Positions 2,068 through 50,466 of a stretch of 64,000 nucleotides of DNA are shown here, one piece after another; the first letter of the stretch is position 1; each line of letters opens with the position of its first letter. The translations under genes were made by a program, and so were the position numbers. The DNA is from Betaproteobacteria bacterium (lineage in GTDB: Bacteria; Pseudomonadota; Gammaproteobacteria; Burkholderiales; SHXO01), in the NCBI GenBank assembly GCA_025356655.1, contig JANXRW010000142.1, positions 1 to 64,000 of the forward strand, read 5' to 3'. Below the pieces are notes generated by a model that made no database searches, had not been told where the DNA came from, and worked only from the letters and a program-made list of their open reading frames with translations.

Positions 2068-3462
2068 TTGCAACCGTGTAAAATGTGCGCCTCGTGGAGT
2101 GGTCAGGAAACGGATCCCATTGAGGTGTCGCCACGATTAGCCGCCAAGAAGCCAAGGAAAACCAACATTCTAGCCGAAACAGACGAGCAACTCCGCCGCC
2201 GCCGCAGCCGTTTATGGCTCGTGGGACTTCTGAGCCTGCCCCTAATTGGTGCGGTCGCCGCCTTCGGAATCGCTCCCAACACCATAACGGAGCCCGTGAC
2301 CCTGCGCGAAGTGGTTGACGATCTGGCGCTGGAGGTGCCCGCTTCAGAGGTGTCCACCGACGAGCCGTTCTGGCGTGAGGAGCGAATTCAGCGCGGCGAT
2401 ACGGTGGCATCGCTCCTCTCCAGGCTTCAGGTCGACGATGCTGAAGCGCTGCGCTTCCTCCGGTCGTCCGAGCGCGTACGGCCGCTTTACCAACTGGTCC
2501 CCGGCCGCATCCTGCGAGCAGTCACCAAGGCCTCCGGTGAATTGGTGTCGCTTCGCTATGCCACCAGCGACGGGACAGAACTACGGGTCGAGCGCACGGA
2601 CATCGGATTCAAGGCCACGCAGCGTGTCCTGGAGATGGAACGGCGGCTGGTGATGAGTTCGGGGGAAATTCACAGTTCGCTTTTTGCAGCCATGGACAGC
2701 GCGGGCTTGGGCGACCACGTGGCCACGCAACTGGCAGACATATTCTCCGCGGAGATCGACTTCAACCGGGATCTGCGTCCAGGGGACCGGTTCTCGGTGG
2801 TGTTCGAGGCGTTTTACCACGAGGGGGAATTCGTTCGCACGGGCCGCATCGTAGGCAGCGAGTTCATCTCCCGCGGCACCCGGCACCGGGCCGTCTACTT
2901 CCCTGACGGCGCAGGTGGCGGCTACTTCACGCCCGAGGGGCGTAACCTCAAGCGGGCCTTTCTGCGCTCACCACTGGAGTTCTCCCGTATCAGTTCGGGC
3001 TTCAGTGAATCGAGGCTCCACCCGGTACTGAACGTCTGGCGCGCGCATCGCGGCGTGGACTATGCGGCCCCGACGGGAACTCGCGTACGTAGCACAGCCG
3101 ACGGTGAGATCATCTTCGCGGGTCATCAAAGCGGCTACGGCAATGTGGTCGTGGTGCGGCACCGCAGCGGCTATGCCACGGCCTACGGGCACCTTTCGGG
3201 CTTTTCCCGCGGGCTTCATACTGGCCAGCGCATTGGCCAAGGCGACGTGATCGGCTATGTGGGAATGACAGGGCTCGCCACCGGTCCTCACCTTCACTAC
3301 GAGTTTCGGGTCAACGGCGTGCATCAGAATCCCCTGCGCATGGCCACACCGGGGGGCGAGCCCATTACACCCGGACGTCGCCCGCAGTTCGAGGGCGCGG
3401 TCGCGCAGATGCTGGAGCGCCTGGACCTGATCCGAGGCATGAATCTGGCACTGGTCAACTGA
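2068..3462 (+). CDS. M23 family metallopeptidase (OapA/LysM-like N-terminal region, membrane anchored)
   Basis: HRGVDYAAPTGTRVRS...GHLSGFS...GPHLHYEF zinc peptidase motifs; exact start uncertain. Confidence 0.93.
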   Translation: MQPCKMCASWSGQETDPIEVSPRLAAKKPRKTNILAETDEQLRRRRSRLWLVGLLSLPLIGAVAAFGIAPNTITEPVTLREVVDDLALEVPASEVSTDEPFWREERIQRGDTVASLLSRLQVDDAEALRFLRSSERVRPLYQLVPGRILRAVTKASGELVSLRYATSDGTELRVERTDIGFKATQRVLEMERRLVMSSGEIHSSLFAAMDSAGLGDHVATQLADIFSAEIDFNRDLRPGDRFSVVFEAFYHEGEFVRTGRIVGSEFISRGTRHRAVYFPDGAGGGYFTPEGRNLKRAFLRSPLEFSRISSGFSESRLHPVLNVWRAHRGVDYAAPTGTRVRSTADGEIIFAGHQSGYGNVVVVRHRSGYATAYGHLSGFSRGLHTGQRIGQGDVIGYVGMTGLATGPHLHYEFRVNGVHQNPLRMATPGGEPITPGRRPQFEGAVAQMLERLDLIRGMNLALVN

Positions 3463-3506: not shown

Positions 3507-4574
3507 ATGTCTGGCACCAGCCTCGACGGCGTGGATGCCGTCGCAGTGGATTTCGGTCGCGCCCCCTGGAGGCTCGCCGGCTCGATCTACCGCCCCTACC
3601 CGCCGGCGCTTCGCCAGCAGTTCGCTGACATCCAGCAGCCGGGCTTTGACGAATTCAACCGTGGGGGGCTATTGGCGGGCGACCTGTGCCGCGAGTACGC
3701 TCGGGCGGTGGCCGGCCTGCTCAGCGCGGCCGGAATCTCCCCTCTGCAGGTCGCGGCCATTGGCTGTCACGGACAGACCTTACGCCACCAGCCCGGCCTC
3801 GGGTACACGCTGCAACTAATGAATGGCGGACTGCTAGCGGAGCTGAGCGGGTGCCCGGTGATCTGCGATTTCCGCAGCAGAGATGTCGCTGCGGGCGGCC
3901 AGGGCGCACCACTCGTTCCAGCCTTCCACCAAGCGGCCTTCGCGCACCCGTCGCGGCATCGGGCGCTGGTCAACATCGGCGGCATTGCCAATATTACGGA
4001 CCTGGCTCCCGGGCGCGCCGTCAGCGGATTCGACTGCGGCCCCGGCAACGTGCTGCTCGACGGATGGGCGGAGCGGCATTTAGGCGCGCCCTATGACGGC
4101 GGCGGTCAATTCGCGCGGCGCGGGGTTGTTGATTCCGCTCTCCTGAAGCGCCTGCTGGCCGAGCCCTTCCTCCAAATGCCACCTCCCAAGAGCACGGGAC
4201 GCGAAACCTTCAATCTGGATTGGGTGGAACGGTCTTTGCGCAACGGGCTCAGGCCCCAGGACGTGCAGGCCACATTGCTTGAGGTCACGGTAGTGGCCAT
4301 CGGGCAAGCGTTGCGGCGCTATTGCGAAGGGACGGAGGAACTCTACGTCTGCGGTGGGGGTGCGCACAACTTGCGGTTGATGGAGCGACTGGCGGAGACC
4401 CTTCCCGGCGTGCGGCTCGCTCCGAGCGATGAACTAGGAATCGCCGCCGACTGGGTAGAGGCCTTCGCATTTGCTTGGCTGGCCAAGCAACACCTAGACG
4501 GAGCGGCGGGAAACGTCCCTTCGGTCACCGGGGCCGCTGGCCCCCGGGTGCTGGGTGCACTCTATCCGGCCTGA
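3507..4574 (+). CDS. anmK: Anhydro-N-acetylmuramic acid kinase (true start probably slightly upstream, possibly non-ATG)
   Basis: GLMSGTSLDGVDAVAVDF, IGCHGQT, NIGGIAN, FDCGPGN motifs. Confidence 0.95.
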   Translation: MSGTSLDGVDAVAVDFGRAPWRLAGSIYRPYPPALRQQFADIQQPGFDEFNRGGLLAGDLCREYARAVAGLLSAAGISPLQVAAIGCHGQTLRHQPGLGYTLQLMNGGLLAELSGCPVICDFRSRDVAAGGQGAPLVPAFHQAAFAHPSRHRALVNIGGIANITDLAPGRAVSGFDCGPGNVLLDGWAERHLGAPYDGGGQFARRGVVDSALLKRLLAEPFLQMPPPKSTGRETFNLDWVERSLRNGLRPQDVQATLLEVTVVAIGQALRRYCEGTEELYVCGGGAHNLRLMERLAETLPGVRLAPSDELGIAADWVEAFAFAWLAKQHLDGAAGNVPSVTGAAGPRVLGALYPA

Positions 4575-24011: not shown

Positions 24012-24754
24012 ATGCTAGCTCCGTTGATGCGTCCGCCGCCGCCGATGCCCCCCGCCCTGCTCTTCCAGGCGGTCGGCAAAACGCTCCGCGGGCGCGCGGT
24101 ATTAGAGGATGTGTGCCTGGAGGTCGCATCGGGGGAGACCTTCGCACTCGCGGGCGTCAATGGGGCAGGCAAGACCACCTTGCTGCGCTGTGCGCTGGAC
24201 TTCATCCGGCCGAGTCACGGCCGGCTCGAGATTTATGGCCGCAGCCACCTCCTGCCCAGTGCGCGCCAGCCCCTGGCGTATCTTCCGGAGCGATTCCTTC
24301 CGCCGCACTACTCGACCGGAGGAGATTTCCTGCGCTTCGTCCTCAACCTCGACGGCCGGCCCTTCGACGAGCAGGAAGCGCGCGCCATGCTGCAGGCACT
24401 GGAATTGGATCCGTCCGCGTTGCGCCAGCCCACGCGCGCCCTGTCCAAGGGCATGACCCAGAAACTTGGGCTGGCCGGCTGCTTTCTGCGACGCAAACCC
24501 CTGCTGATACTGGATGAACCCACCAGCGGCCTGGATCCCCAGGCTCGTGCCCTCTTCAAACAACAGGTCCGGGCGCAGCAGGCTCGTGGTGGAACCGTCC
24601 TGTTTACGTCCCACGCGCTGGCGGACGTGGAGGAGTTAGCCGACCGGATGGCGATCTTGCACAATGGCTCGGTGCGCTTCCTGGGTCGCCCCGCCGAACT
24701 GCGCGCCCGCGTGCCGGGAGCGACCTTGGAGCAGGCTTTCCTGGAGCAGATTGC

Positions 24755-24758
<4 letters not shown>
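24012..24758 (+). CDS. ABC transporter ATP-binding protein (first gene of the pilus-associated cluster; PilH-like by context)
   Basis: GVNGAGKTTLLRCAL, LSKGMTQKLGLAGCF, LLILDEPTSGLDP; overlaps the response regulator by 4 nt. Confidence 0.92.
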
Positions 24759-26194
<1,436 letters not shown>

Positions 26195-26306: not shown

Positions 26307-27278
26307 ATGTACTACGAGTTCTTCGGGCTATCTCATCCGCCGTTTCGCATAACGCCTGACACGGAGGTGTTTTTCGAGGGGGGCAACCGCGGGCCAACGC
26401 TGGAAGCCTTGCTCTACGCCATCTCGCAGGGCGAGGGCATCGTCAAGGTGACGGGCGAGGTCGGCAGTGGCAAAACGATGCTCTGTAGCGTGTTGCAGAC
26501 CCGACTCCCTGACCACATGGATACGGTCTACCTCGGTAATCCGAGCGTCGGGCCGCAAGAGATCCTGCACGCCATCGCCTTCGAGCTGCAGCTCCCGGTA
26601 GCGCCCAACGCTGGCCGCCTCCCCGTACTCCATGCACTGAACGCCTTCCTGCTCGGCCGCCACGCCGAGGGGCGGCAGGTCGTTCTGTTCGTAGAGGAGG
26701 CGCAGGGCATGCCCATCGAAACCTTGGAAGAGATCCGCCTGCTCTCCAACCTAGAGACCCGCCACCACAAGCTGTTGCAGATTGTCCTTTTCGGACAACC
26801 GGAGTTGGACCTGCACCTCCAGGGCCTGGAAATCCGCCAACTGCGTGAGCGCATCACGCACAGCTTCCGGCTCGAGCCGCTGGGCGACGCGGAGGTCGCC
26901 CGCTACTTGGCCTTTCGCCTGCAGGCCGCCGGCTACCGCGGGCCGGATCTGTTCGGCCGGAGACTGGTCCGGTCCCTGGTCAAAGCCACCGGAGGCATCA
27001 CCCGGCGCATCAACCTCGTCGCTGACAAGACGCTTCTGGCCGCCTTCGCCGATGGCACGCACACCCTCAACGCGCGGCACCTGCGCGCCGCATTGGCTGA
27101 CAGTGCCTTCCGGGAAGCCCGCCAGAGCGCCTCGGGCAGTTGGCTGCTGCTGGCCGCGGCGACACTCGTCGCCTTGGGGCTCGCGGCCGCACTGTACGGC
27201 GCCCTCAAGGCGACCCATCTCGTAGGAGAATCGGGACCGGAGCATCGTCTCGCGGCAGGGCGGTCCGTTAAAAGCTGA
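26307..27278 (+). CDS. ExeA/MshM-like AAA ATPase
   Basis: MYYEFFGLSHPPFRITPDTEVFF; TGEVGSGKTMLCSVL; C-terminal TM helix. Confidence 0.92.
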   Translation: MYYEFFGLSHPPFRITPDTEVFFEGGNRGPTLEALLYAISQGEGIVKVTGEVGSGKTMLCSVLQTRLPDHMDTVYLGNPSVGPQEILHAIAFELQLPVAPNAGRLPVLHALNAFLLGRHAEGRQVVLFVEEAQGMPIETLEEIRLLSNLETRHHKLLQIVLFGQPELDLHLQGLEIRQLRERITHSFRLEPLGDAEVARYLAFRLQAAGYRGPDLFGRRLVRSLVKATGGITRRINLVADKTLLAAFADGTHTLNARHLRAALADSAFREARQSASGSWLLLAAATLVALGLAAALYGALKATHLVGESGPEHRLAAGRSVKS

Positions 27279-27295
27279 GAACCCATCTTGAGAAC

Positions 27296-27347
27296 TGTCG
27301 GCATAACATTGAAATAGATACGATTTTTGTGTAATGTTCAGCCGACA
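27296..27347. repeat. Imperfect inverted repeat upstream of the mshL-like gene
   Basis: TGTCGGCATAACATT ... AATGTTCAGCCGACA, 13 of 15 positions complementary, 22-nt AT-rich spacer. Confidence 0.8.
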
Positions 27348-27453
27348 ACGCGGATCATCGGCGGGCGGGCGCGTGCGACGCCTGACGGAACAAGAGCATG
27401 GGCAGGCAGAGGCCGGGGTCGGGCCGGGGCAGGGAATCATCGAGAAACGCGTA

Positions 27454-29190
27454 ATGAGAACCGCGCAAGCCCCAAGCGTCCGGCGAGCCGCGACCTTTGG
27501 CGCGCTGCTGTTCGCGCTGGGCCTGCCCGGTTGCGGGGTGCACCCGGTGGTTCCCCAATCGCAGGGACACATCACCCGGGACGATGCAACCCCAGCGGGC
27601 GCCGACCAGATTCCACCGGCGGTCAGTGGCACGCCCTACGTGCCGCCACCACGCCAACGTCCGAAGGTCCCCACCTACAGCGTGGTCGTGTACGAGGTCC
27701 CTGTGAAGGAACTGTTGCTCTCCCTGGCGCGCGACACCAAGGAGAACATCGATGTCCATCCTGGGCTCACCGGACTGGTGAGCGTTAACGCCGTCGACGA
27801 GACGCTGCCGGCGATCCTGGAACGGATCTCCCGGCAGGTGAACCTGCGCTACCGCATCGAGGGCCATACCATCGTAGTGGCTCCCGACCTGCCTTTCGTC
27901 AAGGTCTATCCGGTCAACTACGTGAACATGGTGCGCGACACCACCTCGAGCATCGCGGTGAGCGGCCAGATCAGTTCGGGCACCACGGGCGGCGGTGGCG
28001 CCTCCACCACGACGGTCAACAGCACCTCGCGCAACGCGTTCTGGGAGACGCTCAAGGAGAACATCCAGGGCATGCTCACGGCGACCCGGCAGCAGACGCA
28101 GAGTGCGGAGGACCGGGCGCGTAAAGACGAGGCCGCGCGGGCCGCCCGCGAGGAGCGCTTGGCCCAGGCCGAAGCGGTGTCGAAGGCAGGCGCCAACGCA
28201 CCCAGCCTCTACAGCACCGTGTTCGGTAATGGCGCCGCGGCCTCCCCCTCCAACGCCACCCAGGACGTCGTGGTCAACGCCTCCGCCGGCAACATCATGG
28301 TGCTGGCGACCGACAAGCAGCACGCGCTGGTTCAGCAATATCTCGACCAAGTAATCGCGTCCAGCCAGAGGCAGGTGTTGATCGAAGCAACGATCGTGGA
28401 GGTGACACTCAACCGCACCTACCAGGGTGGGGTGGACTGGAACGTCCTCTCGAGCAGGAGTGCCCTGCAGATCAGCCAGCAGATGCTCGCCGGCGCAGTC
28501 GGCGCGGCGCCGAATTTCGTACTGGGCACCACCCCGGGGTCGCGCTTGGGGGACGTCTCGGCGACACTGAAACTCCTGGAGACATTCGGCTCCACCCGAG
28601 TGCTTTCCAGCCCCAAGATGATGGCACTGAACAATCAAACGGCACTGCTGAAGGTCGTCGACAACCTCGTCTACTTCCAGGTGCAGTCTTCGATCAGTCA
28701 AGGAACGAACAACGCGGGCAATCTGCAGAGCATCACCACGACACCCACCACGGTAGCGGTTGGCGTGGTCCTCAGCATGACCCCTCAGATTAACGATAGT
28801 GGCGTGGTGACGCTGACGGTGCGACCCACGGTCACGCGCCAGAACGGCGTCGCGCGCGATCCCAATCCGAACCTCAGTATCCCGAACGACGTGCCCCTGA
28901 TCCAGGTGCGCGAAATGGAATCCGTCCTCCAGCTGATCAGTGGGCAAACGGCCGTCCTGGGCGGACTCATGCAAGACGACGTGGAGCGCAAAAGCAACCA
29001 GATCCCGGGGCTGGGTAGCCTTGCGCGCATTGGCGAGCTCTTCAAATTCCGCGACGAGTCGGCCAAAAAGACCGAATTGATTATCTTCATCCGGCCCGTC
29101 GTGGTGACGAACCCCTCGCTCGATAGCCCGGATCTCCGGCATCTGCGCCGCTTCCTTCCGGCGGCGGAGCACGCGGGAGACAAGCCGTGA
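27454..29190 (+). CDS. mshL: MSHA-type pilus secretin, MshL-like
   Basis: Lipoprotein-like start MRTAQAPSV...LGLPGCG; secretin core VLSSPKMMALNNQTALLKV, VPLIQVREMESVLQLISGQTAVLGGLMQD. Confidence 0.92.
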   Translation: MRTAQAPSVRRAATFGALLFALGLPGCGVHPVVPQSQGHITRDDATPAGADQIPPAVSGTPYVPPPRQRPKVPTYSVVVYEVPVKELLLSLARDTKENIDVHPGLTGLVSVNAVDETLPAILERISRQVNLRYRIEGHTIVVAPDLPFVKVYPVNYVNMVRDTTSSIAVSGQISSGTTGGGGASTTTVNSTSRNAFWETLKENIQGMLTATRQQTQSAEDRARKDEAARAAREERLAQAEAVSKAGANAPSLYSTVFGNGAAASPSNATQDVVVNASAGNIMVLATDKQHALVQQYLDQVIASSQRQVLIEATIVEVTLNRTYQGGVDWNVLSSRSALQISQQMLAGAVGAAPNFVLGTTPGSRLGDVSATLKLLETFGSTRVLSSPKMMALNNQTALLKVVDNLVYFQVQSSISQGTNNAGNLQSITTTPTTVAVGVVLSMTPQINDSGVVTLTVRPTVTRQNGVARDPNPNLSIPNDVPLIQVREMESVLQLISGQTAVLGGLMQDDVERKSNQIPGLGSLARIGELFKFRDESAKKTELIIFIRPVVVTNPSLDSPDLRHLRRFLPAAEHAGDKP

Positions 29191-30518
29191 GCTTGCTGCT
29201 GCAGGCACTGCAGAAGGCGGCGCGCAGCCGCGAGGGCGCAGAGACGACAGCGGAGTCGGCGGCGTCTGCAGAGGACACGTCGCTCACCCGCCTGACGGCT
29301 GAGGACCTGAGCCTGGAGGAGGATGACTTCGCCCCGCCCGTCCGCGGGCTGGGCAGGGACCGCTCGCGCGCCCCGGCCGTCACCGCGCAGGCCGAGGCCG
29401 CCACCGTGTTAGCTGCCTCCACGGCCGCACCGGGCTTCACGGACTTCGTCCGTGAGCGGCCGATACCGGTCTTCATGGCGGCCGCGTTCTTGCTGGCGCT
29501 GCTCTACGGCACCTACGTCTGGGTGCAGATTTCTCACCCCGCCTGGATGCGTGGTGAATTCTCCTCGCCCGCCCCGCTTCGCGTCATGAGTAGACCACCG
29601 GCGCCCCGGCCCGTGAGCATCGCACCCAAGGCTGCACCACCCCCGGCGCCGCTGGCTAGCTTGGCTGCCGGGGCACCGGCATCCGCCACAGTTGCCCCGG
29701 CGGTGCTGGCCACAAGCCCCCCGACGACCCGCCTCGGACCACCCCCTCCGCCGCCCGTGGCGCACACGGACTCTACCACCGAGCCCCCCATCAATGGGAC
29801 GCCGGCACGGCCGCCGCCCCGGCTTCGTGGAACGCTGCCTTCGCCGCGCGCGGCCGCCCGGCCGGGGGTGCCTGCAGGGAAGCAGGGGCGGAACGCAGAG
29901 GCAAGAGCGGACGTCAACGCGCGCGGGGGCAATCTCGCCGCACCCTCGTCGGAACTTCAGCACGCCTGGGAACTGCTTCAGGCGGGTGGAACCGAGGAGG
30001 CCCAGAGCATCTACCAGCGCGCTGCCGCGGCTGACCCGGGCAACGTCGATGCACTGCTCGGTCTCGCCGCGACCGCTGCGCAGAAGGGGGATGCGGAGGA
30101 GGCTATCCGGCATTACGAACGCGCCCTGGAACGTGAGCCCCGTAACGCAGCGGCGCAGGCCGGCCTCATCGCGTTGATTGGCCAGGCAGACCCCCAGGCG
30201 AGCGAGACGCGCCTGCGCCAACTAATAACCCAGGACACCTCTGCGGCATTTCTCCACGCCAGCCTGGGCGGGCTTCTCGCCCGTCAAGGAAAGTGGTCCC
30301 CCGCAGAGCAAGCCTTCTTCCAGGCGTTCCAGTTGCAGCCCGACAATGCGGACTACGCCTACAATCTCGCCGTCAGCCTCGAGCACCTGAGCCAGCCGGG
30401 GCTGGCCCTAAACTATTATCGGAAGGCACTGGACCTGGCTGGGCTAAAGGGGCGCGCCACCTTTGACCGGGAGCGTGCCCGGTCTCGGGTGAGTGCTCTG
30501 ACGGCGGGCGCGGGCTGA
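29187..30518 (+). CDS. TPR protein with N-terminal cytoplasmic segment and single TM helix (MshN-like)
   Basis: GTG start overlapping the mshL stop; TM FMAAAFLLALLYGTYVWV; C-terminal TPR repeats. Confidence 0.85.
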   Translation: MSLLLQALQKAARSREGAETTAESAASAEDTSLTRLTAEDLSLEEDDFAPPVRGLGRDRSRAPAVTAQAEAATVLAASTAAPGFTDFVRERPIPVFMAAAFLLALLYGTYVWVQISHPAWMRGEFSSPAPLRVMSRPPAPRPVSIAPKAAPPPAPLASLAAGAPASATVAPAVLATSPPTTRLGPPPPPPVAHTDSTTEPPINGTPARPPPRLRGTLPSPRAAARPGVPAGKQGRNAEARADVNARGGNLAAPSSELQHAWELLQAGGTEEAQSIYQRAAAADPGNVDALLGLAATAAQKGDAEEAIRHYERALEREPRNAAAQAGLIALIGQADPQASETRLRQLITQDTSAAFLHASLGGLLARQGKWSPAEQAFFQAFQLQPDNADYAYNLAVSLEHLSQPGLALNYYRKALDLAGLKGRATFDRERARSRVSALTAGAG

Positions 30519-30584
30519 ACCCGCAGCCCCGCGTGGGCGACTGCGCACGCACATGGTCAACCCCCGTGGTCTTGGACGAGAGAC

Positions 30585-32291
30585 ATGGCTGAAGCCCGCA
30601 ACAAGAAGCTGCGCCTGGGCGAACTGCTCATCGCGCAAGGCCTCATCACACCCGACCAACTGCGCATCGCGCTCACCGAGCAGAAGCAACAGTCGATGCC
30701 GCTCGGGCGCCTGCTGGTGCGGTTGGGCTTCGTCACCGAGGCCGTGGTGCGCGACATCATGGCGCGCGCCATCGGCCAGGAGACCCTGGACCTCACCCAA
30801 GTGGTGGTGGATGCAGACGCGCTGAAGCTCATCCCCCAGGAATACGCGCGCCGGCACCGGGTGTTGCCCGTGGCCGTGGATGCCCAGGCTCAACAGTTGC
30901 TCGTGGCCATTACCGAAGTCTTCAACGTCGCCGCGCTCGATCAACTGCGCGCCACGCTGGGCGCGGGTATCAAGATCAAGACCGTGCTCGCCGGCGAGGC
31001 TCAACTCGAAGACGCGATCGATCACTTCTACGGGCATGAACTGTCCGTCGACGGCATTTTGAAGGAGATCGAGACCGGTGAGATCGACTACCAGAGCCTT
31101 GAGTCCGACGGGGAGGAGTACACGCAGCCATTGGTCCGCCTCGTGGGCGCGCTGCTCGTCGACGCGGTCAAGCGCTCGGCCTCGGACATCCACTTCGAAC
31201 CCGAGGCGGCCTTCCTACGCATCCGTTACCGGATCGACGGCGTGCTCGAGCAGGTACGCAGCCTGCACAAAAACTACTGGCCAGGCATTGTTGTCCGCCT
31301 GAAGGTCATCGGCGGGATGAACATCGCCGAGACCCGGGCGCCCCAGGACGGGCGCATATCGCTCACCCTCAACGGCCGGCCCGTAGACTTCCGGGTCTCC
31401 ACCCAGCCCACGATCTGGGGCGAGAACATCGTGTTGCGAGTGCTCGACCGCGAGAAATCCATCATCAGCCTGGCACAACTGAAGCTCCCAGCGCACGTGC
31501 TCACCACCATCAATCTGATGCTGGCGCGCCCGGAGGGCATCATCATCCTCACCGGCCCCACGGGTAGCGGAAAGACCACCACGCTCTACTCGCTGCTCTC
31601 GAGGCTCAATGCCGAGGGGGTCAATATCATGACCCTGGAGGACCCGGTGGAGTACCCGGTGCCGATGATGCGCCAGACCTCGGTGAACGAAATGGCGAAG
31701 GTGGACTTCGTCACCGGCATCCGCTCCATCATGCGCCAGGATCCCGACATCATCCTCATCGGCGAGGTTCGCGACCGCGATACGGCGGACATGGCTTTCC
31801 GGGCGGCCATGACCGGGCACCAAGTGTTTACCACACTGCATACGAACTCCGCGCTGGGCGCCTTCCCGCGTCTCGTCGACATCGGCATCCTCCCCGAGAT
31901 CATCGCCGGCAACGTCATCGGGGTGGTCGCACAGCGCCTGGTGCGCGTGCTGTGCCCCAACTGCCGGGAAGCCTACCAGCCATCGCCCGAGGAGGCACGG
32001 CTATTGGGCGTCGAACGCGGCAGCCCGGGCACGATCTACCGGCCCGCAGGCTGCAAGCAGTGCAATATGCGCGGTTACCGCGGGCGTATCGCCTTGATGG
32101 AGATCCTGCGCCTGGATGCGGAACTCGACGAAATGGTGGCCAGCCGATCCAGCGCGAGTCATTTGCGCGACGCCGCGCTGCGCAAGGGGTTCCGCCCCCT
32201 CGCCGAAGAGGGCGTGGCCCGCGTGCTCGACGGCACCACGTCGCTGAGCGAGATCGCGCGCGCGGTGGATCTCACCGCACGCTTCGGCTAG
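30585..32291 (+). CDS. mshE: GspE/PilB-type assembly ATPase, MshE-like
   Basis: MshEN-type N-terminus; GPTGSGKTTTLYSLLSRL; TLEDPVEYPVPMMRQTSVN. Confidence 0.95.
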   Translation: MAEARNKKLRLGELLIAQGLITPDQLRIALTEQKQQSMPLGRLLVRLGFVTEAVVRDIMARAIGQETLDLTQVVVDADALKLIPQEYARRHRVLPVAVDAQAQQLLVAITEVFNVAALDQLRATLGAGIKIKTVLAGEAQLEDAIDHFYGHELSVDGILKEIETGEIDYQSLESDGEEYTQPLVRLVGALLVDAVKRSASDIHFEPEAAFLRIRYRIDGVLEQVRSLHKNYWPGIVVRLKVIGGMNIAETRAPQDGRISLTLNGRPVDFRVSTQPTIWGENIVLRVLDREKSIISLAQLKLPAHVLTTINLMLARPEGIIILTGPTGSGKTTTLYSLLSRLNAEGVNIMTLEDPVEYPVPMMRQTSVNEMAKVDFVTGIRSIMRQDPDIILIGEVRDRDTADMAFRAAMTGHQVFTTLHTNSALGAFPRLVDIGILPEIIAGNVIGVVAQRLVRVLCPNCREAYQPSPEEARLLGVERGSPGTIYRPAGCKQCNMRGYRGRIALMEILRLDAELDEMVASRSSASHLRDAALRKGFRPLAEEGVARVLDGTTSLSEIARAVDLTARFG

Positions 32292-32314
32292 GACGCGCTG
32301 CGGCGCCCGCCCCC

Positions 32315-33520
32315 TTGCCCGCCTTTAATTACAAGGCCATCGACCGGGGCGGGCGCCAAGCTCGCGGTCGCCTGGACGCAGCTAACGAGGTGGATCTCGA
32401 ATTGCGCCTCAAGCGCATGGGGCTGGACCTGATCACCTTCCGCGTGCTCTCAGATCGGCGGCGTGCGCTGGGCCGCAGTACCGTCACCCGACTGGACCTG
32501 ATCGCATTTTGCTTCGACGTGGAGCAAATCTCGCGCGCCGGCATACCCCTGGTCGAAGGCATACGGGACCTGCGCTCGAGCGTGGAGAACCCGCGGTTCC
32601 GGGAAATTCTCTCCTCGGTCGTGGAGGACATCGAGGGCGGGAAGAGCCTGTCCCAGGCGCTCGGCAGCTTCCCGCTGGTGTTCTCGCCCGTGTTCGTGAG
32701 CCTGGTGCGCGCCGGGGAGCAGGCAGGACGATTGGCCGAGGTGTTCACCAGCCTCGGCGCGACGCTAAAGTGGCAGGATGAAATGGTGTCGCGTGCCCGG
32801 CAACTTATGGTGTATCCCCTGCTGCTGCTCGCGGTCGTGGTCGCCGTGGCGCTTTTTCTTCTGCTGTTCCTCGTCCCGCAGGTAGTTACACTGCTGAAGA
32901 ACCTCGGGCTGCAGTTGCCGCTGCAAACGCGCATCCTGCTGGCCATCTCCGAATTCCTGCGCGAGGACTGGTTCCTCGTGCTACCCGTCCCGGTAGCCCT
33001 CGCGGGGGCTACTTCCTGGTTCGTGTCCGCGACCCCCCGGGGCGGCTACCTGTTCGACTACTGGAAGCTGCGCCTGCCGCTGGTAGGGCCCGTCCTGCAC
33101 AAAATCATCGTCGCCCGCTTCGCAAACTTTTTTGCGCTCATGTACGAATCGGGAATCACGATCCTCGATGCACTTAAGACCAGCGAGGGGATTGCGGGCA
33201 ACCGCGTGGTGGCCGAGGCACTCCAGCGTGCGGGACAGCAGATCAGCGCGGGGGAGAGCTTCAGCGATGCACTTCAGAACACCGGCCTCTTTCCGCCGCT
33301 GGTAGTGCGCATGGTGCGCGTTGGCGAGACCACAGGAGCCCTCGACCGGGCACTGCTCAACGTCACTTACTTCTACAACCGCGATGTACGCGAATCCGTG
33401 GACAAGGCTCTGCAATTGCTTGGCCCTGCCATGACGCTTATCCTCGGCGGCATGCTCGCGCTCATCATGTTCGCTATCCTGGCCCCCATCTACGAGGTCA
33501 TCGGCAAGATCCGGTTCTAA
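32315..33520 (+). CDS. mshG: GspF/PilC-type inner membrane platform protein, MshG-like (putative TTG start)
   Basis: FNYKAIDRGGRQARGRLDAANEVDLELRLKRMG; GspF domains; ORF-track start lies inside mshE. Confidence 0.92.
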   Translation: MPAFNYKAIDRGGRQARGRLDAANEVDLELRLKRMGLDLITFRVLSDRRRALGRSTVTRLDLIAFCFDVEQISRAGIPLVEGIRDLRSSVENPRFREILSSVVEDIEGGKSLSQALGSFPLVFSPVFVSLVRAGEQAGRLAEVFTSLGATLKWQDEMVSRARQLMVYPLLLLAVVVAVALFLLLFLVPQVVTLLKNLGLQLPLQTRILLAISEFLREDWFLVLPVPVALAGATSWFVSATPRGGYLFDYWKLRLPLVGPVLHKIIVARFANFFALMYESGITILDALKTSEGIAGNRVVAEALQRAGQQISAGESFSDALQNTGLFPPLVVRMVRVGETTGALDRALLNVTYFYNRDVRESVDKALQLLGPAMTLILGGMLALIMFAILAPIYEVIGKIRF

Positions 33521-40907: not shown

Positions 40908-41710
40908 TGGTCGAACCCCGAACGCGAGCCCGCGTCCCCTGGATCGTCTGGACGCTGCTCGGCCTAGCAGTGCTGGTACAGGTCGGCTTGCGCGCCAGCC
41001 AGCCCGCGCCGGTGGCCCGGGCGAGTGCACTGGCGGCACCACCACGGCTCGCCTTCGCCCGGGCGGCAAGCCTTGGGGAGGAGCGCGTTCTCGGCCAATG
41101 GCTCGCCCTTTACCTTCAGGCCTTTGACAACCAGCCGGGTATCAGCGTGCCCTTCATGAGTCTGGATTACGCGCGCGTGGAGCTTTGGCTGGATCTTTTG
41201 CTTGCACTCGACCCGGCGGGGTCCTACCCGCTCCTCATGGCTGCCCACCTGTATGGACAAGTTCCCGATGCGACCCGCACCCGGCGCATGCTGGAGTTCA
41301 TTCACCGGCATTACCTAGTCGATCCGCCTGGGCGTTGGCGCTGGCTCGCCCACGCCGTGGTCATTGCCCGGCACCGGTTGCAGGACCCTCGGTTGGCGCT
41401 GCACTACGCGCAAAGCCTCGCCGAAGCCCCCGACGGGGCTCGGACGCCCGGCTGGGCGCGGCAAATGCACATTTTTTTGCATGAGGACCTGGGAGAGGCG
41501 GACACCGCCAAACTCCTGCTCGGAGGACTTCTCGCCAGCGGGACCTTGTCCGACCCAAAGGAAATCCACTTTCTCATGAGCCGCTTGCAGGCGCTTCAGG
41601 CTGTTGAGAATGGCGTCAAAAATCCGTCATCCCTGTCGACGGTCAGACGCTCACCGGGAGCGCCTGGGGCCCTTCAAGCGCCTATAGCCCCCCAAGCGCC
41701 GCTAAATTGA
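40907..41710 (+). CDS. Membrane-anchored alpha-helical repeat protein of unknown function
   Basis: Overlaps the permease stop; N-terminal TM IVWTLLGLAVLVQVGL; helical repeat-like body. Confidence 0.7.
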   Translation: MVEPRTRARVPWIVWTLLGLAVLVQVGLRASQPAPVARASALAAPPRLAFARAASLGEERVLGQWLALYLQAFDNQPGISVPFMSLDYARVELWLDLLLALDPAGSYPLLMAAHLYGQVPDATRTRRMLEFIHRHYLVDPPGRWRWLAHAVVIARHRLQDPRLALHYAQSLAEAPDGARTPGWARQMHIFLHEDLGEADTAKLLLGGLLASGTLSDPKEIHFLMSRLQALQAVENGVKNPSSLSTVRRSPGAPGALQAPIAPQAPLN

Positions 41711-41764
41711 CAAGTTTGTTTGACAGTTGATCGCAAGATCATTATTTTTCGGCATAAACGCATT

Positions 41765-41780
41765 TGGCACAATTCTGGCT
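41765..41780 (+). promoter_or_regulatory. Sigma-54 (-24/-12) promoter upstream of the pilin genes
   Basis: TGGCAC-AATTC-TGGCT versus consensus TGGCAC-N5-TTGCW; GG-N10-GC spacing exact; 79 nt before the pilin ATG. Confidence 0.8.
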
Positions 41781-41858
41781 TGAACCACCCCATCGGGCCG
41801 TCAGCGAAACCCGCGAAGGGTTATTCGACTGGGCGGACATCAAGGAGCAGGAAACACC

Positions 41859-42569
41859 ATGAACAAATCGAAGGGTTTTACGCTCATCGAGATCGCCATC
41901 GTGCTGGTGATCATCGGATTGCTGCTGGGCGGGCTATTAAAGGGCCAGGAGCTGATCACGGGCGCCCGCGTGCGCAACCTCATTTCTCAGCAGGACGGTA
42001 TAAAGACTGCCTTCTTCGGCTTCCAGGACCGCTTCCGTGCGCTGCCCGGGGACTATGCCGCGGCGGACACGAACATCAACTGTGGCGCGGCGGTCTGCCC
42101 TAACGGCGACGGCAATGGACGCATTGAAGGACCCAACGGCGCGGGCACCCAAGAGGGGATTCTGGCCTGGACGCACTTGTCGGCCGCAGGCTTCCTCAAC
42201 GGAAGTTACACCACGGTCGCGAAGCCGGCTACGTTGTTCACGCTAACTAGTTCGCCCGTGAACCCCTATGGCGTCTACCTCGAACTGCTCTGGGACAACA
42301 ATTACGGAAACGCTGCAGTGCCAACGCCGCCCAAGCATAACCTAAAAACCGGAAATCAGATCCCCGTGGACATTCTGGCGGAGATCGACCGCAAGGTCGA
42401 CGACGGGTTCCCCTACTCCGGCGCCTTCCAACTGACCACCTGGGGCCCGCAGAAAGACAACCCAGCCGACACCAAGCAGACCGACGCCACCTGCGTGACG
42501 GGAGCGGGCGCTGGCACCTGGAACGTCACTGGAGGAAGCACCAACTGCGGCGCTGCCAGTCTGTTCTAA
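41859..42569 (+). CDS. Type IV pilin-like protein (prepilin)
   Basis: MNKSKGFTLIEIAIVLVIIGLLLGGLLKGQELI; FQDRFRALPGDYAAAD. Confidence 0.95.
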   Translation: MNKSKGFTLIEIAIVLVIIGLLLGGLLKGQELITGARVRNLISQQDGIKTAFFGFQDRFRALPGDYAAADTNINCGAAVCPNGDGNGRIEGPNGAGTQEGILAWTHLSAAGFLNGSYTTVAKPATLFTLTSSPVNPYGVYLELLWDNNYGNAAVPTPPKHNLKTGNQIPVDILAEIDRKVDDGFPYSGAFQLTTWGPQKDNPADTKQTDATCVTGAGAGTWNVTGGSTNCGAASLF

Positions 42570-42577
42570 ACGGCCGC

Positions 42578-43309
42578 CTGGGCCGGACACGGCCCGGCGC
42601 TGCGCGGGCGACGGCGTCCCGCCAGCGCGGCTTCAGCCTAGTGGAGATCGCCCTCGTCCTCGTCGTAGGCGGCTTGCTCATGGGCGGCGTACTCGTGGGC
42701 CAGGAGGTGATTCAGGGCGGCCGCGTGCGCCGGATCATCTCCCAGCAGCAGGACCTGACGCTGGCCGTTCTGGCCTTCCAGGACCGCTATCGCGCGATGC
42801 CCGGCGATTATGCGCTGGCGTCCACGCACCTGCCCTGCCCGGGTGGATGCGTGAACGGCGACGGTGACGGAAAGGTCGACACCATAGGTGCCCCCGCGGA
42901 ATCACTGGTGGCCTGGAGCCACCTCTCTGCGGCCGGCCTGCTCACCAGCGGATTTACCGTCGATGCGCAGACCCGGACGACCAGCGGGAACAATACGCCG
43001 CGCAATGCGTACGGCGGCTACATGCACTTGGCGTTCGATTCCACCTGGGGAGAGCCTCTGGCCAGCAACGACACCCGGCCAAGACATAATCTGAAGACCG
43101 GCCCCGGCATACCGCCCAGCGTGCTTGCTGAGATCGACCGGAAGATCGATGATGGGCTCCCCACTGTCGGGCGCCTGCAGTTCTCCGGCTACCTCTCCTC
43201 AGACGCGGCCGTTTTGGCCACCGGCGGAACTTGTCTCGCGGGCGCCGTAGGGCAGCGACAGTGGGGCCACGGGCGCGACGGCGATTGTGGCGCCGCCACG
43301 CTCTTCTGA
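42578..43309 (+). CDS. Type IV pilin-like protein, paralogue of 41859-42569; start unresolved
   Basis: In-frame upstream sequence gives ...SRQRGFSLVEIALVLVVGGLLMGG; the ORF-track GTG at 42641 lies inside the mature N-terminus; no in-frame ATG/GTG/TTG start found between the previous stop and this point. Confidence 0.8.
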   Translation: MGRTRPGAARATASRQRGFSLVEIALVLVVGGLLMGGVLVGQEVIQGGRVRRIISQQQDLTLAVLAFQDRYRAMPGDYALASTHLPCPGGCVNGDGDGKVDTIGAPAESLVAWSHLSAAGLLTSGFTVDAQTRTTSGNNTPRNAYGGYMHLAFDSTWGEPLASNDTRPRHNLKTGPGIPPSVLAEIDRKIDDGLPTVGRLQFSGYLSSDAAVLATGGTCLAGAVGQRQWGHGRDGDCGAATLF

Positions 43310-49020: not shown

Positions 49021-50466
49021 ATGAAGCAGTCGCTCCAGCTAAAGCTTTCCCAGCATCTGACGCTCACGCCGCAGTTGCAGCAGTCCATCAAGCTGCTGCA
49101 ACTATCTACGCTCGAGCTTAACCAGGAGATCGAGCGGTTCCTCCAGGACAATCCCCTGTTGGAGCGTGACGACAGCAGCGACGAAGATATCCCTGTCCCG
49201 CAGCCCGGCGCCATGCCGGGATCGGAACTGACGCCCCCCTCCACCCAGGCCACCACCAGCACGGACTCGGAAGACCGCCCAGAGGGTAGTGAACCCGAGA
49301 TGGAATGGGGCAGCGACGAAGGCGGAGGCGGCGGCGGGGGAGATGACGGCGAGGACGGCGACTACCCCCAAGTCGCCGCCAACGAGCCCTCGCTGCGCGA
49401 GCACCTCATTTGGCAGATGAACCTCCTGAAGCTGTCGGAGCGGGACCGTCTGCTACTCTCGCTCTTGGTGGACTGCCTGGACGACGACGGATACCTCACC
49501 GCAGACCTGGAGGAACTCGTCGCACTCCTCCCACCGGAGCGCGGCGTGGATGCTTCCGACCTGCAGGTGGCGCTTAAGCACCTGCAAAACATGGAACCCG
49601 CGGGGATCGGCTCGCGCAGCCTAGGCGAGTGCCTTGCGCTGCAACTCGAGGCCCTGCCGCCCCAGACGCCCTACCGGGCAGAAGCGCTGCACACGGTTCG
49701 CAACCATTTGGACCTCCTCGCCGCACGCGACTATGCGCGGCTGAAAAAGCTACTTCACTGCACGGACGACTCGCTGCGCGAGATCCAGGCGCTAGTGGTC
49801 GGACTGGACCCTAGACCAGCGTCGCGGTTTTCTAACGACGCGGCGCGCTATATCATCCCAGACGTCATCGTAAAGAAAGTCCGTGGCGCCTGGCGCTCGG
49901 CGCTCAATCCCGACGCGATGCCCAAGCTGCGAGTCAACCGTCTGTACGCGGATATCCTGCAGCGCAACCGGGATTCCAGCATGCAACAGCTGTCGGGGCA
50001 GCTCCAAGAAGCCAAATGGTTGATCAAGAACGTCCAGCAGCGCTTTGATACGATCCTTCGCGTGTCCCAGGCCATTGTCGAGCGGCAACGGCATTTCTTC
50101 GAGCACGGCGAGGTCGCCATGCGGCCCCTGGTCCTGCGCGAGATCGCCGACACCTTGGGGCTGCACGAATCCACCGTCTCTCGCGTTACAACCCAGAAGT
50201 TCATGCTAACCCCGCGGGGTATCTTCGAGCTGAAGTACTTCTTCGGCAGCCACGTAACCACCGAAACCGGGGGTGCCTGCTCCGCCACCGCTATCCGTGC
50301 ACTGATCAAACAACTCGTGGGCGAAGAAGACCGGCGCAAACCGTTGTCGGACAGCCAGATCTCAGAGATCCTGGGCAAGCAGGGCATCGTCGTCGCGCGG
50401 CGGACCATCGCCAAATACCGGGAGTCGCTGCAGATACTCCCCGTGAATCTCAGAAAGGCATTGTGA
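49021..50466 (+). CDS. rpoN: RNA polymerase sigma-54 factor
   Basis: MKQSLQLKLSQHLTLTPQLQQSIKLLQLSTLEL; RpoN box ARRTIAKYRESL. Confidence 0.98.
   Translation: MKQSLQLKLSQHLTLTPQLQQSIKLLQLSTLELNQEIERFLQDNPLLERDDSSDEDIPVPQPGAMPGSELTPPSTQATTSTDSEDRPEGSEPEMEWGSDEGGGGGGGDDGEDGDYPQVAANEPSLREHLIWQMNLLKLSERDRLLLSLLVDCLDDDGYLTADLEELVALLPPERGVDASDLQVALKHLQNMEPAGIGSRSLGECLALQLEALPPQTPYRAEALHTVRNHLDLLAARDYARLKKLLHCTDDSLREIQALVVGLDPRPASRFSNDAARYIIPDVIVKKVRGAWRSALNPDAMPKLRVNRLYADILQRNRDSSMQQLSGQLQEAKWLIKNVQQRFDTILRVSQAIVERQRHFFEHGEVAMRPLVLREIADTLGLHESTVSRVTTQKFMLTPRGIFELKYFFGSHVTTETGGACSATAIRALIKQLVGEEDRRKPLSDSQISEILGKQGIVVARRTIAKYRESLQILPVNLRKAL

Follow-up and report, generated by a model that had tools for sequence, protein, structure and literature searches.

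In Pseudomonas aeruginosa, the NtrC-type regulator PilR acts together with sigma-54 at the promoter of the major pilin gene pilA, with PilS as the PilR kinase, and the PilR sites are NifA-like TGTN11AGA sequences with nearby GTCT elements (PMC6058289). Commensal Neisseria use RpoN and the NtrC-type regulator Npa, whose gene shares an operon with nps, to control pilE only, the other pilus operons being of the RpoD type; in pathogenic Neisseria, pilE itself is under RpoD control (PMC6528607). For mshA of Vibrio, our literature search found no sigma-54 control.

Here we analyzed a stretch of 64,000 nucleotides (the window) from a betaproteobacterial genome, which carries an MSHA-like type IV pilus locus. 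The pilin control that we propose for it is of the same kind as PilSR/pilA and Npa/pilE: as in P. aeruginosa, an NtrC-type regulator and sigma-54 would meet at the promoter of a major pilin, and as in commensal Neisseria, the control would concern the pilin alone. It differs from the PilR sites by its operator, which consists of CGA-N4-TCG dyads in tandem with 20-bp spacing, from PilSR by its MSHA-like locus, and from both systems in that no kinase adjoins the regulator. With the Vibrio MSHA pilus the locus shares MshL-, MshE-, PilC/GspF- and ExeA-like assembly genes; we call it MSHA-like because the score with the MshL model (225.5 bits) lies below the curated cut-off of 250.2. The genes concerned are the following:

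24755..26194, forward strand: NtrC-type response regulator, proposed activator (PF00072, PF00158, PF02954)
26307..33520, forward strand: assembly genes for an ExeA/MshM-like ATPase (start 26307), an MshL-like secretin (27334), a TPR protein (29187), an MshE-like assembly ATPase (30585) and a PilC/GspF-like protein (31952)
41859..42569, forward strand: pilin 1, proposed target (236 aa, prepilin motif GFTLIEIAIVLV, PF07963, TIGR02532)
42620..43309, forward strand: pilin 2, 49% identical to pilin 1
49021..50466, forward strand: rpoN, sigma-54 (PF00309, PF04963, PF04552; TIGR02395 above cut-off)

The assembly ATPase contains an MshEN domain with the MshE-type c-di-GMP motif, and minor-pilin-like and uncharacterized ORFs lie between the PilC/GspF-like gene and the pilins. 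Homologs of pilin 1 were found in 58 of 100 related genomes. Pilin 2 is probably cotranscribed with pilin 1. Its open frame overlaps the end of pilin 1 and offers no ATG, GTG or TTG before the prepilin motif ARATASRQRGFSLVE (42344-42641), so that translation may start at a rare codon (ACG or CTG) or by translational coupling, or the sequence may contain an error. The genome thus encodes its own sigma-54: RpoN has the activator-interacting, core-binding and DNA-binding domains, and its gene is located in an lpt/ptsN/hprK neighborhood.

A first-pass annotation of this DNA had pointed to a near-consensus sigma-54 element before the pilin pair and to a GAFTGA-bearing sigma-54 activator encoded in the same locus. 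Both were found as described. Two elements in front of pilin 1 have to be considered as promoters, the second of which that annotation had not taken into account:

41765..41780, forward strand: -24/-12 (sigma-54) promoter element TGGCACAATTCTGGCT, 10/11 consensus positions, GG-N10-GC
41720..41748, forward strand: sigma-70-like TTGACA-17-TATTTT, possible second promoter, 10/12 positions with a perfect -35 box

Scored against the 11 positions of TGGCAC-N5-TTGCW, the -24/-12 element departs from consensus only in the -12 box, which reads TGGC instead of TTGC. Exactly 10 nt separate its GG (41766-41767) from its GC (41778-41779), the pilin ATG follows 79 nt 3' of its last base, and transcription would be expected to start near 41791. 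A weight matrix derived from relatives, with the element's own site left out, gave it 14.8 bits, which is the best -24/-12 score of the 64 kb and is shared by a site at 3435 on the forward strand. This second site (3435-3450, AGGCATGAATCTGGCA) lies inside the end of an M23 peptidase ORF; 57 nt after it, at 3507, an anhydro-N-acetylmuramic acid kinase gene begins. No tandem dyads of the kind described below ranked there in the 64-kb scan. Under a first-order Markov model, about 0.55 equal matches are expected per strand in 64 kb and about 0.0013 per 150-nt upstream region. With one equal match elsewhere in the window and this expectation, the site taken alone is unremarkable; it is suggestive and does not settle the question. 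These same numbers would fit an AT-rich intergenic sequence that matches by chance and is functionless in this genome. We regard this as very improbable, given the position-specific conservation of the element, the tandem dyads upstream of it and the linked distribution of both with the regulator.

The conservation emerged from the motif search upstream of homologous pilins that the first-pass annotation had suggested. We compared 49 nonredundant upstream regions, taken from betaproteobacterial or Burkholderiales MAGs, and sought matches within 130 nt of the pilin start. A GG-N10-GC element with at least 9/11 consensus positions was present in 38 of them, compared with a mean of 0.75 and a maximum of 4 in shuffled sequences. 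The enrichment was also seen at thresholds of at least 8/11 (43/49; shuffles: mean 3.7, maximum 10) and at least 10/11 (18/49; mean 0.07, maximum 1). Control windows farther 5' contained matches of at least 9/11 in only 2 (-400..-270) and 1 (-270..-140) of 47 cases. Among held-out loci, which were fetched afterwards and not used in training, a promoter of at least 9/11 was found in 13 of 16 with the regulator vs. 2 of 17 without it (Fisher P = 9e-5, a value that, like the other Fisher values given here, overstates independence because the relatives share ancestry). The association has exceptions in both directions: a clear promoter is absent from the regulator-bearing loci L037, L051 and L074, and 9/11 matches are present in the regulator-lacking loci L093 and L095.

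The sigma-70-like sequence could mean that the pilin is mainly driven from there and that the sigma-54 element plays a secondary role or is vestigial, a situation like that of pilE in pathogenic Neisseria with its RpoD control (PMC6528607). While the match itself is good, sites of this type are not clearly enriched before the homologous pilins (3 at 10/12 or better vs. 0.7 expected, shuffle maximum 4), in contrast to the strong enrichment of -24/-12 elements, and this genome has retained rpoN, the regulator and the best dyad. We therefore consider a mainly sigma-70-driven pilin unlikely. The spacer of the sigma-70-like promoter also holds a short perfect palindrome, TGATC-GCAA-GATCA (41729-41742).

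Transcription from a sigma-54 promoter of its own would set the pilin apart from the assembly genes, as had been proposed for this locus. Upstream of the assembly genes, the window has no -24/-12 site of similar quality, and to this extent the proposal is supported. Full uncoupling is not established, because the preceding ORF is on the same strand with a gap of 148 nt to pilin 1 and no forward-strand terminator was seen between them, which makes read-through possible.

Further support for the sigma-54 promoter comes from putative activator-binding sites, which the first-pass annotation did not mention. A palindromic motif search covering 280 nt before the -24 element in the relatives yielded a pair of 16-bp dyads (tGtCGAaattTCGaCa), exactly 20 bp apart and located 68-245 nt 5' of the -24 element. 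The log-likelihood of the motif was 224, vs. 56.5 for the best of 164 shuffled sets, and of the 42 loci that contain a strong site, 36 have its best partner at exactly 20 bp. In the window, a model trained without this genome detected the following pair:

41614..41629, no strand assigned: putative enhancer dyad 1 CGTCAAAAATCCGTCA, 14.1 bits, rank 1 of all positions in the 64 kb
41634..41649, no strand assigned: putative enhancer dyad 2 TGTCGACGGTCAGACG, 4.7 bits, exactly 20 bp after dyad 1

Dyad 2 is weak when scored alone (rank 55); at a single specified position, a score this high is expected with a probability of 0.0009. As a tandem, the two dyads rank first in the 64 kb with 18.8 bits, the next pair, which shares dyad 1, reaching 8.7. 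Both are located within the 3' end of the ORF preceding pilin 1. No good IHF consensus match was found between the dyads and the promoter.

Among the held-out loci, a significant 20-bp pair was present in 9 of 16 with the regulator and in 0 of 18 without it (Fisher P = 2e-4). For two of the pairless regulator-bearing loci, L070 and L067, a pair was found farther upstream or at 19-bp spacing, and dyads were absent within the fetched stretch of L068, L069 and L077. The dispersed pilin paralogs checked in the regulator-bearing genomes G083 and G033 have no dyads. We rejected a definition of the regulon by counts of the dyad-pair pattern in 24 genomes, as these counts barely exceeded those of a reversed-pattern control; the pilin dyads are among the best matches listed for G015, G062, G106 and G107.

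The candidate activator combines a receiver domain, an AAA+ domain with the GAFTGA motif and a Fis-type HTH (Pfam, alignment), the architecture of an NtrC-type regulator. In an alignment of 10 orthologs, the phospho-acceptor Asp, the acidic residues and the Lys of the receiver are conserved, which makes phosphorylation plausible, and the RTTLYSR segment of the HTH (recognition helix) is invariant. Orthologs were 51-61% identical, and paralogs at most 50%, mostly 35-46%. An ortholog was found in 26/27 and 16/29 pilin-bearing genomes vs. 1/41 genomes lacking the pilin (pooled 42/56 vs. 1/41, Fisher P = 6e-14, ignoring shared ancestry). About half of the ortholog-bearing genomes have regulator and pilin on one contig, roughly 16-24 kb apart, and the gene order ABC-type ATPase - regulator - ExeA-like gene is kept in most relatives examined.

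The ABC-type ATPase gene (24012-24758) shares 4 nt with the start of the regulator gene, its adjacency being kept in most relatives examined, and no permease gene was recognized between the two. In one relative (G074, L105:1437-3626), its place upstream of the regulator is taken by a gene for a GAF-PAS-GGDEF-EAL protein, a possible link to c-di-GMP.

Among NCBIfam models, the regulator matches TIGR02915 best, the PrsR family of the PrsK-PrsR system (PEP-CTERM/exosortase; TIGR02915, TIGR02916), with 324.5 bits vs. a cut-off of 502.6; the only match of the adjacent ATPase is a PEP-CTERM-associated ATPase (206.6 vs. 324.5). Since these scores are below the cut-offs, we do not count either protein as a member of the PEP-CTERM families, and a PrsR identity was rejected. 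No TIGR02916 (PrsK) kinase over the cut-off was found in the assembly. Two exosortases (PF09721) are encoded elsewhere in the genome, on contigs C124 and C71.

Neither the window nor the relatives examined showed a kinase gene next to the regulator, which sets it apart from a gene pair of the PilS-PilR type. A kinase-like match lies close to each of the other three full-length sigma-54 activators of the assembly, which leaves this one as apparently an orphan response regulator.

The dedicated circuit of promoter and locus activator that had been thought plausible gains support from this co-occurrence of promoter, dyads and regulator, which extends to the held-out loci. The linkage could partly arise because the regulator is itself a pilus-locus gene. 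The promoter might then be sigma-54-dependent with its dyads bound by another activator, NifA-like or PilR-like, and the regulator merely traveling with the locus. The dyad ends, TGT-N10-ACA, resemble the NifA enhancer consensus, and locus linkage alone could yield the co-occurrence. Against this, none of the 18 regulator-lacking pilin upstream regions had a significant dyad pair. The alignments of the four full-length sigma-54 activators found in the assembly all include a receiver domain, so that no NifA-like protein is seen among them. With a completeness of only 68.6%, the assembly may lack a further activator. Overall, we judge binding by another activator slightly less likely still than a mainly sigma-70-driven pilin.

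We thus consider it very probable that the pilin has a functional sigma-54 promoter activated by the locus regulator via the tandem dyads. What the computations show is the promoter motif, the tandem dyads and the linked distribution of both with the regulator; the regulator as dyad binder, a phosphorylation switch, DNA looping and the transcription start are inferred. The regulator would be phosphorylated, probably by a kinase encoded elsewhere, dimerize on each of the two palindromic sites and form an AAA+ hexamer. Its GAFTGA loop would then contact E-sigma-54 at the -24/-12 element, with the DNA in between looped out, and remodeling of E-sigma-54 would allow transcription to begin.

Because the promoter and the paired sites recur almost only alongside the regulator, the pilus subunit is probably turned on by a switch of its own. 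It is quite possible, if still doubtful, that this represents a previously undescribed, betaproteobacteria-wide control of pilins, in which an orphan NtrC-type regulator of MSHA-like loci has one main target, the locus-linked pilin, uses a stereotyped tandem dyad at 20 bp, is fed by an unlinked kinase or another signal, and may be tied to the c-di-GMP-motif ATPase of the locus. A literature search, with subscription journals mostly outside its reach, found no earlier description of the regulator/dyad/pilin circuit. The proposal provides a specific, testable set of regulator, operator and promoter for a widespread and little-studied type IV pilus, and the fixed 20-bp tandem operator would make the regulon searchable in other genomes. 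It would further extend to MSHA-like loci the theme that major pilins, and not the assembly genes, are under sigma-54 control.
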